Positions 5,919-14,775 of a stretch of DNA of 22,759 bases are shown piece after piece; the first letter of the stretch is position 1, and the number at the start of each line of letters is the position of its first letter. Made by a program: the position numbers and the translations under genes. The DNA is from Muribaculaceae bacterium. Lineage in GTDB: Bacteria; Bacteroidota; Bacteroidia; Bacteroidales; Muribaculaceae. Location of the stretch: contig JAFYCU010000014.1 of NCBI GenBank assembly GCA_017545095.1, positions 1-22,759 of the forward strand, in the 5' to 3' direction. A model generated the notes under the pieces. It was not told the origin of the DNA. It saw only the letters and a program-made list of their open reading frames with translations, and did not search any database.

Positions 5919-5944
5919 CCGCAAGCGGCGATTCCATCGCCGCC
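5919..5944 (+). repeat. REP-like palindrome, copy 1
   Basis: A perfect 8-bp stem (GCGGCGAT / ATCGCCGC) around a TCC loop, preceded by CCGCAA and followed by C. It is identical over 26 bases to the copy at 5961. Its structure, a short conserved tetranucleotide (GCAA) 5' of a hairpin, is that of REP sequences mobilised by RAYT transposases, and a RAYT gene lies at 12804. It is located in the namZ-dehydrogenase gap. Confidence 0.85.
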
Positions 5945-5960: not shown

Positions 5961-5986
5961 CCGCAAGCGGCGATTCCATCGCCGCC
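5961..5986 (+). repeat. REP-like palindrome, copy 2
   Basis: Exact 26-base duplicate of the copy at 5919, in the same orientation and 42 bases downstream. The stem is GCGGCGAT / ATCGCCGC with loop TCC. It ends 17 bases before the ATG at 6004 and so would lie in the leader of the dehydrogenase message, where the hairpin could affect stability or translation. Confidence 0.85.
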
Positions 5987-12646: not shown

Positions 12647-12671
12647 TGCAAGCGGCGATTCTATCGCCGCC
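12647..12671 (+). repeat. REP-like palindrome, loop variant
   Basis: Stem GCGGCGAT / ATCGCCGC with loop TCT in place of TCC, preceded by TGCAA. It lies in the gap between the SGNH hydrolase and the RAYT gene, 49 bases from the next copy and in the same orientation. Confidence 0.82.
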
Positions 12672-12695: not shown

Positions 12696-12720
12696 CGCAA
12701 GCGGCGATTCCATCGCCGCC
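12696..12720 (+). repeat. REP-like palindrome upstream of the RAYT gene
   Basis: Intact stem GCGGCGAT / ATCGCCGC with loop TCC, preceded by CGCAA. It lies 84 bases before the RAYT start and forms a direct pair with the copy at 12647. Confidence 0.85.
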
Positions 12721-12738: not shown

Positions 12739-12807
12739 ATGCCCAAGCTCACCCCCGAGCAGCTCGCCTCCATCAAGCGCAATGCCGGCACCAAGCAGCC
12801 TCCATGA
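12739..12807 (+). CDS. 22-codon ORF overlapping the RAYT start (possible leader peptide)
   Basis: A short ORF runs from ATG 12739 to TGA 12805-12807 and would encode MPKLTPEQLASIKRNAG plus five more residues. Its stop overlaps the RAYT start as ATGA, the usual arrangement for translational coupling. It is in a different frame from the RAYT. It could be a real leader peptide controlling transposase translation, a remnant of a longer N-terminus, or chance. There is no homology evidence. Confidence 0.3.
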   Translation: MPKLTPEQLASIKRNAGTKQPP

Positions 12808-13877
12808 CCCGCCGCGACGTCAGCCACGACTACACCAGCCGATGCTTCTACATGATCACCCTCACCGTGCTCGGCCGCCACCCCGTGCTCGGACAGGTGG
12901 ACGGCACCTCGCTTGCTCCATGCATGAAGCCATCGCTGCTCGGTGCCGCAGTGCAGCGTGAGTGGGGCAGCATCAGCACCCACTGCTCGCAAGTGGCTGT
13001 GGTGGCTTGCCAGCTTATGCCCGACCATCTGCACGGCATCCTTTATGTGCGGGAGCCAGTGAACTTCCCTCTCGGGAATGTGGTCAAGGGCTTCAAGCTC
13101 GCTTGCAACCGGGTACTGCGCGAGCTGCTGGCGGCGATGAAATCGCCGCTTACCGAGAAGGAGCAAGCCCTGCTGCACCTTGCCGCCTTGCGGCAGCCAG
13201 GCAAGGCCGTGCTGTGGAGCGAAGGCTACAACGACATCATCCTGCGCTCTTATGATGAACTGGAAACGTGGAAACAATACCTGCTCGACAATCCGCGCCG
13301 CCTGCTGCTCAGGCGGGAGCACTCCGAGTGGCTGCGGCCATTTTTCGACCTGCCACTGGGGCAGCATAAGTGCTGCGGCATCGGCAATCGTGACCTGCTC
13401 GACGCACCAGTGCGTGTGCAGGTGCACATCTCACGCAGCATGCCTCAGGAGCAAATCAACCGGGAGCGAGAAAGCTTACTGGAGCAGGCGAGGGCTGGAG
13501 CAGTGTTGGTATCCCCATCTGTCTCTCCTGGCGAGAAACAAGTCATGCGAGCCGCTTTCGAGGCCGGGATGCGCCTGATTGTTATTCAAGAGAACGGCTT
13601 CACTCCATTGAGCAAGCCTCACCGTCAGTTTTTCGAAGCCTGCGCTCAAGGTCGCCTGCTGCTCCTCTCCCTTTGGCGACATCACAACGAGAAACGGCCG
13701 CTCACCGCAGCCAAGTGCGCCGCCATGAACCAGCCCGCGAAATATGCAATAAATAAAGCCAAAGCCCGGGTCGCCTTTTATCCGCAAGCCCTTCCCCGCA
13801 AGCGGCGATTCCATCGCCGCCCCGGTGCCTCGCCGCCCCAGTGTATCATCCGTTCCCTTTTCCGCAGGCGGCGATGA
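12804..13877 (+). CDS. REP-associated tyrosine transposase (RAYT, HUH/Y1) with extra C-terminal domain
   Basis: The product is 357 residues, far longer than a typical single-domain RAYT (about 150-200). Residues 1-180 carry the Y1 transposase fold: TSRCFYMITLTVLGR near the N-terminus, the metal-binding LMPDHLHGIL with the HUH pair His75 and His77, and WKQYLLDNPRR with candidate catalytic Tyr159. Such enzymes cut and join single-stranded DNA at REP hairpins. Residues about 203-315 form a second region (VQVHISRS, AGAVLVSPSVSPGEK, AGMRLIVIQENGF, ACAQGRLLLLS) that looks like a Rossmann fold of the DprA/SLOG kind; this is inferred by pattern only. The gene contains an inverted REP copy (codons 109-116), and its last 30 or so codons run through two more copies, the stop codon lying in a REP loop. 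REP copies flank it on both sides. Confidence 0.83.
   Translation: MTRRDVSHDYTSRCFYMITLTVLGRHPVLGQVDGTSLAPCMKPSLLGAAVQREWGSISTHCSQVAVVACQLMPDHLHGILYVREPVNFPLGNVVKGFKLACNRVLRELLAAMKSPLTEKEQALLHLAALRQPGKAVLWSEGYNDIILRSYDELETWKQYLLDNPRRLLLRREHSEWLRPFFDLPLGQHKCCGIGNRDLLDAPVRVQVHISRSMPQEQINRERESLLEQARAGAVLVSPSVSPGEKQVMRAAFEAGMRLIVIQENGFTPLSKPHRQFFEACAQGRLLLLSLWRHHNEKRPLTAAKCAAMNQPAKYAINKAKARVAFYPQALPRKRRFHRRPGASPPQCIIRSLFRRRR
13130..13152 (-). repeat. REP-like palindrome inside the RAYT gene, reversed
   Basis: On the minus strand this reads TAAGCGGCGATTTCATCGCC plus GCC, differing from the intact family sequence at the first base of this stretch and in the loop (TTC). The 8-bp stem is perfect. 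On the plus strand it is read in the RAYT frame as A-A-M-K-S-P-L (residues 110-116), between the HUH motif and the catalytic Tyr. Confidence 0.7.
13796..13821 (+). repeat. REP-like palindrome at the RAYT 3' end
   Basis: Identical over 26 bases to the copies at 5919 and 5961. It lies inside the annotated RAYT reading frame, which reads it as R-K-R-R-F-H-R-R. Confidence 0.85.
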
Positions 13878-13886
13878 ATCGCCGCC
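13863..13886 (+). repeat. REP-like palindrome variant containing the RAYT stop
   Basis: A 9-bp perfect stem (GGCGGCGAT / ATCGCCGCC) around a two-base GA loop, preceded by CGCA. The TGA stop of the RAYT frame (13875-13877) uses the last stem base and the loop. It is in direct orientation, 67 bases from the previous copy. Confidence 0.78.
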
Positions 13887-14145: not shown

Positions 14146-14775
14146 TCAGTCGGTTTTGAACGATTCGGAGAACAGGGTGCGGTTCTGGATGGAGCGGCCC
14201 AGGGTGAGCTCGTCGGTGTACTCGATTTCGTTGCCCACGCTCACGCCGCGCGCGAGCATGGTGATGCGCACGTCGGGGTAGGGTGCCAGGCGGCGGTAGA
14301 TGTAGAAATTGGTGGTGTCGCCCTCCATGGTGGCGGCCAGGGCGAGGATCACCTCGCGGATGCCGCCGGCCTTGACACGTTCTACCAGCGAGTCAATCTC
14401 GATGTCCTGCGGCCCGATGCCGTCCATGGGCGAGATGAGCCCGCCCAGCACATGGTACAGGCCGTGGTGCTGGTGGGTGTTCTCGATGCTCATCACGTCT
14501 TTCACATTCTCTACCACGCAGATGGTGCTGGCGTCGCGCACCGGGTTGGCGCAGATGGGGCACTGCTCGGTCTCGCTGATGTTGTGGCATGTGCGGCAGT
14601 AACGGATTTCGCGCCGCAGCCGCATCACGGCCTCGCCCAGGGCCACCGCCTCGCCCTCGGGCTGCTTGAGCAGGTGCAGCACCAGCCGCAAGGCCGTCTT
14701 GCGCCCAATCCCCGGCAGCTTCGCAAACGCGCTCACAGCCGACTCCAATAACGTAGATGCAAACTCCTGATCCAT
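14146..14775 (-). CDS. recR: Recombination mediator protein RecR
   Basis: The 209-residue protein has the full RecR order: helix-hairpin-helix with [20 protein letters not shown] at 17-36, a four-cysteine zinc finger [16 protein letters not shown], a Toprim domain starting [14 protein letters not shown], and the C-terminal [21 protein letters not shown] typical of RecR. It works with RecO (and RecF) to load RecA on single-stranded gaps. Length is normal. It is followed by a 57-codon gene after five bases. The upstream region is AT-rich and borders the GxxExxY cassette; no promoter with correct spacing was found. Confidence 0.97.

Follow-up and report, generated by a model that had tools for sequence, protein, structure and literature searches.

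A conserved family of REP-associated transposases joined to a predicted DprA-like domain in Bacteroidales

The 22,759-nucleotide stretch of DNA analysed here (the window: contig JAFYCU010000014.1 of the Muribaculaceae assembly GCA_017545095.1) carries a gene in which a tyrosine transposase of the kind associated with repetitive extragenic palindromes (REPs) is continued, within one protein, by a domain whose predicted fold is that of DprA. The fusion is a real and conserved family, of single origin on the tree of its HUH transposase domain. The locus is a REPtron, that is, the gene of a REP-associated tyrosine transposase (RAYT) together with REP palindromes of its own. The gene and its parts are laid out as follows.

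12804..13877, + strand: RAYT/DprA-like fusion gene, 357 amino acids (aa); open reading frame (ORF) from ATG to stop, with homologs that carry both domains
12804..13346, + strand: N-terminal Y1/HUH REP transposase domain, residues 1-181
13020..13034, + strand: HUH motif PDHLH, residues 73-77 (H75, H77; both in 75/75 aligned fused proteins)
13278..13295, + strand: catalytic tyrosine motif YLLDNP, residues 159-164 (Y159, N163; with P164, in 75/75)
13341..13754, + strand: C-terminal DprA-like Rossmann domain, residues 180-317, as predicted with AlphaFold2, Foldseek and VIA
13434..13436, + strand: Arg211, aligned to the arginine of DprA that contacts single-stranded DNA (ssDNA; R52 in H. pylori, R115 in S. 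pneumoniae)
13524..13538, + strand: SPGEK (residues 241-245), which a register set by eye places on the DprA ARGID loop
13749..13874, + strand: read-through tail, residues ~316-357, across two REPs; relatives have no counterpart of such length

The fused family

Sequence models see only the first half of the protein, and see it weakly. The NCBIfam model REP_Tyr_transpos (NF047646) covers residues 60-176, with E 9.1e-8 and 32.1 bits where the cut-off is 80; the match to Pfam Y1_Tnp (PF01797), at E 0.0071 and 16.9 bits, is likewise below its cut-off of 23 bits. The protein does have the motifs by which RAYTs are recognized, HUH and a single tyrosine in Y-x-x-NP; the residues H75, H77, Y159, N163 and P164 are invariant throughout the 75 aligned proteins, the window protein included; and the protein model matches 4er8 and the TnpA proteins of IS608 and ISDra2. 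Judged by sequence, the window protein is a divergent RAYT relative. A sequence-only reading of this DNA had already placed the ORF and picked out His75, His77 and Tyr159 as its Y1/HUH residues, correctly in both respects.

A search of 5.8 billion proteins returned at least 1360 relatives at E<=0.001 among 7998 candidates scored. For most of the 120 homologs listed, a single local alignment spans 86-87% of the query, and annotation is sparse: three of the 120 bear names, all as hypothetical proteins. A scan of GTDB contigs by pattern yielded 515 confirmed relatives; the best 80 of these, the related loci, are titled Prevotella, Prevotellaceae, Bacteroidaceae or other Bacteroidales/Bacteroidetes, and many come from ruminants. 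Alignment A2 holds 74 of the 80 (L008, L011, L014, L028, L049 and L053 were omitted as redundant or truncated), and alignment A3 holds 61. The earlier reading had proposed looking for the same fusion elsewhere; it is there, with both halves present in 39/39 aligned rows, query included, and with the two domains linked in nearly every relative counted in genomes of the same taxonomic family. In 251 such genomes the C-terminal domain (C-domain) occurs in 76 and an HUH profile match in 83, and a C-domain match lies directly downstream of 122 of the 125 strongest HUH matches. Linkage here means a C-domain match starting <=600 bases downstream, counted over those 125 HUH matches and the first 150 C-domain matches among those listed. 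Of the three unlinked HUH matches, two (contig positions 10-369, minus strand) belong to genes that run off the contig; in the third, L172, the C-domain is shortened.

A tree was built from the HUH domain only, with 43 fused rows (the window protein, 26 of the 74 A2 loci and 16 divergent proteins) and 24 unfused ones; the latter were drawn from the best NF047646 matches, so that the tree may lack other kinds of unfused relative. One branch, with support 99/96 and recovered in 98% of 200 bootstrap trees, separates all 43 fused proteins from the rest; the tree program warns of long branches. Both parts of the protein are under purifying selection: over 33 non-independent pairs, dN/dS has a median of 0.10 in the C-domain (maximum 0.58) and of 0.11 in the HUH domain. 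A frame-shift artefact, or the chance joining of two ORFs, is ruled out by the single-origin clade, the 122/125 linkage and the purifying selection.

In the phylum sample the profile matches 5/395 genomes: the centre genome, and four in which the match is a stand-alone DprA-like or DprA-type protein; in the order sample a narrower profile matches 8/198, again with the centre genome, and some of these are short fragments. Within 12 host genomes the C-domain matches number from 1 to 12 per genome, counting fragments and one unfused protein.

REP hairpins and the place of the clade among RAYTs

Seven hairpins of the form GCGGCGAT-N2/3-ATCGCCGC lie in the window, at 5925, 5967, 12652, 12701, 13131, 13802 and 13868, against 0 in 100 shuffles. 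Four flank or overlap the ends of the gene (two upstream, two at the 3' side), one is inside it and two are ~7 kb away.

12648..12671, - strand: flanking REP, upstream
12697..12720, - strand: flanking REP, upstream
13130..13153, + strand: in-gene REP hairpin, in frame, between the HUH and Tyr motifs; a repeat match to the flanking REPs
13798..13821, - strand: REP in the read-through tail
13868..13885, no strand assigned: REP at the stop codon
5921..5944, - strand: distant member of this REP family, with the NamZ gene on one side and the FAD-oxidase gene on the other
5963..5986, - strand: distant REP of the same family

The in-gene position recurs across the family: 43/74 loci have a hairpin between HUH and Tyr, as against 2/74 controls (this insert test took in 74 of the 80 related loci; L014, L048, L055, L061, L077 and L080 are without the anchor motif). 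Directly before the stem, on one strand, GCAA, GTAA or GCAG stands in 7/7 window hairpins, and the canonical GT[AG]G in 0/7. Among the family inserts the strict GTAG is found in 7/43, and a looser G[CT]A[AGT], defined with the data in view, in 25/43, compared with a shuffle mean of 8.4 and maximum of 15.

The last ~40 residues of the window protein were considered as part of the domain or of the family, and rejected: relatives stop earlier, and the stretch crosses two REP palindromes. Relatives end 3-5 residues past query residue 314 in 36/38 cases, the remaining two running on for 7 and 18; over the 74 A2 relatives the tail past residue 314 measures 3-32 residues, against 43 in the query. The whole-protein model gives this tail pLDDT <=55 from residue 321 onward. 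As to the distant pair of REPs, they are 42 bases apart, and the longest ORF call for the FAD-linked oxidase starts upstream and reads through both.

The fused clade is a distinct RAYT variant. On the tree, the fused group excludes 24 other Y1/HUH proteins of the same taxonomic family, and a profile of the DprA-like domain has no match at E<=0.01 in the ORFs of >=100 aa of the 30 loci supplying unfused proteins; an extension common to all RAYTs is thereby ruled out, and the sequence-only reading was right to treat the C-terminal region as an added module. Other Y1 proteins of the family are ~180-230 aa long without a DprA-like domain, or ~265-300 aa with a different tail. The companion statement that RAYTs are usually single-domain proteins stands in part only, since several subclasses carry C-terminal domains of DnaA_C-like or helix-turn-helix type (Quentin et al. 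2018, PMC6006769); no DprA-like tail figures among those described in the available text of that paper.

Subclass 2.4 of the RAYTs (TnpA_REP) shares with the fusion the HUH and Y-x-x-NP motifs, the flanking REPs and the in-frame REP hairpins between HuH and Tyr, a feature called unique to that subclass in the portion of PMC6006769 consulted. According to the same text, however, subclass 2.4 proteins have a median length of 194 aa with no extension past the core, whereas the fusion adds a ~138-residue DprA-like domain, and their HUH motif is NH[IFV]H where the fusion has DHLH. The nearest group on the tree consists of five unfused proteins assigned as 2.4-like by eye (length, YIxxNP), and the node that joins them to the fused group is weak (91/33). 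As the additional ~138-residue domain follows the core in 122/125 cases, the fusion is not filed as an ordinary member of subclass 2.4. No paper describing a RAYT/DprA fusion was found among the titles and abstracts listed, in a search largely outside subscription journals.

Within the fused family, four proteins (L095, L098, L100 and L101) form a deep branch on a long stem, with a distinct HUH domain and support 100/99; L098 and L100 have long repetitive inserts between HUH and Tyr, of NESGGA- or SSITTA-like runs.

The DprA-like domain and its possible role

Structure prediction and fold search support a Rossmann-like fold for the C-terminal region, and specifically a DprA-like one. Modelled alone, the domain has an AlphaFold2 pLDDT of 95.7; in the whole-protein model pLDDT is 94-98 in each ten-residue block from 181 to 310. 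The second alpha/beta region that had been proposed for residues 203-315 is thus found, at ~180-317, slightly wider than first drawn. In a Foldseek search with the domain, the top 14 rows among the 50 matches listed are all DprA or ShosA; VIA Z is 9.4-13.1 for the DprA and ShosA rows, as against 5.7 for the next fold. The top match is ShosA, and most of the closest folds are DprA.

The original fold call had been DprA or SLOG, and the likeness found is to DprA and ShosA more than to SLOG proteins in general. TM1055 and YpsA, which we take to be members of the SLOG superfamily, come far below DprA and ShosA in fold-search score. One could still suppose that the domain is a ligand sensor, a nucleotide-binding switch of the SLOG type by which the HUH nuclease is turned on or off. 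The low place of nucleotide enzymes in the fold searches counts against this, and to our knowledge no bound nucleotide is known for this family; a sensor seems rather unlikely.

With DprA/Smf (PF02481; PDB 4ljk, 3uqz, 3maj) the domain shares the fold over residues 180-317 and the S-R (GTR) arginine and, with both registers set by eye, G-E-K at the G-I-D position and N309 at the asparagine of RNR. In the available text of two studies (PMC4489622, PMC4066776), R52/R115 is crucial to ssDNA binding by DprA, together with K137/K202 and R143. R211, aligned to R52, is Arg in 74/75 proteins (Lys in 1) and in 28/35 of a broad set. The basic residues K245, R249 and K271 are each present in 74/75, and in 30, 23 and 31 of the 35 in the broad set, where E244 is kept in 35/35. 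Conserved positions concentrate in the loops that follow strands (entropy 0.86 vs 1.32, one-sided p 0.011).

The reading we prefer, at a probability of roughly 0.45, is that the C-domain serves as a tethered ssDNA-holding module on a REP nuclease. The HUH domain would recognize the REP hairpin in single-stranded DNA and nick it through Tyr159; the DprA-like domain would then grip the neighbouring single strand by its conserved face (R211, K245, R249 and K271). Such holding would stop the nuclease from leaving ssDNA at gaps or on the lagging strand, and the cleaved ends would stay close enough to be rejoined or to undergo strand transfer. A module of this sort, rather than a full RecA loader, is suggested because the part of DprA that dimerizes and meets RecA is absent. 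The idea that the fusion might couple REP excision to ssDNA handling or to a signal, put forward in the sequence-only reading, is a plausible conjecture.

Several observations weigh against an ssDNA-holding module. The window protein has no match to PF02481 at E 1, and hhalign gives a probability of just 8.2; 13 of 62 relatives do match PF02481, at best with E 1.5e-4. Of the H. pylori DprA ssDNA residues R52, K137 and R143, R52 alone is clearly kept. At the K137/K202 position Arg or Lys is found in a minority of 30/75 (18/35 in the broad set) and the query has Ala; the R143 position, the first Arg of RNR, is Leu or Met in 75/75 and in 33/35 of the broad set, so that its equivalent is lost. Both of these positions depend on a hand-set register, with N309 placed on the Asn of RNR. 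DprA, moreover, binds ssDNA as a dimer, and the fused domain is missing that interface. Finally, one REP-like pattern is sparse in relatives, with 1 to 27 matches per genome in 16 related genomes (its reversed control gives 0 in 15 of them and 1 in the other), and four of the 16, picked as having an insert without the pattern, have 5, 2, 1 and 5 matches. These counts indicate that REP-like repeats are dispersed but sparse, and that the pattern is not tightly tied to the carrier gene.

A further perspective makes the domain a protein-protein interface, docking the nuclease onto RecA, SSB or the host's own DprA and so coupling REP cleavage to recombinational repair. DprA, to which most of the closest folds belong, is a mediator of RecA; a dprA gene is present as a possible partner in each of the 12 host genomes searched, and in genome G003 a fused copy lies ~1 kb from it. 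Yet the fold match spans only residues 11-152 of H. pylori DprA or 71-217 of S. pneumoniae DprA, and the S. pneumoniae RecA-contact and dimer residues given in the available text of PMC4066776 (E235, D243 and E265; G249 to D275) fall outside it; these zones at 235-275 are absent from the fusion, unlike DprA/Smf. Moreover, tblastn searches at a cut-off of 1e-5, with a single RecR and a single DprA as queries, find recR or dprA in 0/80 related loci, of 3.1 to 13.4 kb apiece (52/80 with ~6 kb on both sides). A docking role is unlikely.

In the window itself recR (14149-14775) follows closely after the fusion gene and is encoded on the other strand. A meaning for this neighbour was considered and rejected: with neither recR nor dprA found by tblastn in the 80 loci, the adjacency is probably chance, the G003 copy near dprA notwithstanding.

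One might also look to conflict with phages and plasmids, and suppose that the domain restrains the nuclease, as in ShosA or PsyrA, until invading DNA is sensed, in the manner of a toxin-antitoxin system. ShosA is indeed the top fold match; and stand-alone relatives of the domain match the PADLOC family PsyrA (7.1e-12 and 1e-14) and have as neighbours DarG (at L165) or type I restriction and Fic genes (at L166). But unlike ShosA (8zva) and PsyrA, which are DprA-family antitoxins, the fusion is joined to a transposase and is without a PADLOC match: no family is assigned to the window protein at E 0.1 or to its C-domain at E 1, nor to any of three fusion C-domains. The ten window genes scanned match ordinary families of metabolism, transport and repair (two of the ten under cut-off), and the association with REPs fits the role of a RAYT. 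A defence function is very unlikely.

Returning to the ssDNA-holding module, a bolder extension can be framed, speculative and itself unlikely: after a once-only fusion, the DprA-derived domain would capture the strand freed at a REP and pass it to the recombination or gap-repair machinery, making REPs programmed ssDNA-processing sites in Prevotella-like genomes. If this were true, it would be, within the literature searched, the first case of a RAYT that contains its own recombination-mediator module. DprA-like domains are known in transformation, in recombination and in phage-defence antitoxins; the fusion extends them to a domesticated transposase. How REPs spread is poorly understood, according to the part of PMC8266576 consulted. 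A large clade in which the REP nuclease nearly always comes with a DprA-like domain offers a handle on what RAYTs do in their hosts, and some of its members are from cultured hosts (L004, L032, L034, L045), among them Prevotella sp. tf2-5 at L004 and Xylanibacter brevis ATCC 19188 at L034.

Stand-alone relatives and other observations

The stand-alone DprA-like proteins of L165 (1360-1965) and L166 (1354-1842), 162-201 aa long, may represent a widespread defence-linked family; the L166 protein has 788 homologs. With Z set to 1e6, a hidden Markov model of this type matches 61/94 fusions at E<=10, seven with E below 1e-3. It matches 0/26 unfused Y1 proteins and 0/12 housekeeping DprAs. Proteins of the type, at ~150-200 aa, differ from the fusion in being unfused, in keeping the RN motif and in having a further segment after it.

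L169 (1615-2196) and L170 (1762-2313) represent a rare second type of stand-alone domain in the same bacterial family, with 4 homologs; the L169 gene is just upstream of a gene that resembles S-adenosylmethionine synthetase. At L093 (1936-3042) the DprA-like domain is N-terminal in a 368-aa protein whose C-terminal part is weakly TnsA-like (endonuclease, E 0.019), and at L167 (106-2133) a 675-aa protein seems, by eye, to hold two tandem DprA-like regions.

Immediately before the fusion gene, a 22-codon ORF, MPKLTPEQLASIKRNAGTKQPP followed by a stop (12739-12807), overlaps the RAYT start codon as ATGA. Shifted by one frame, it resembles the leader that relatives carry in frame at the N-terminus, and would reflect either a frame shift or translational coupling.
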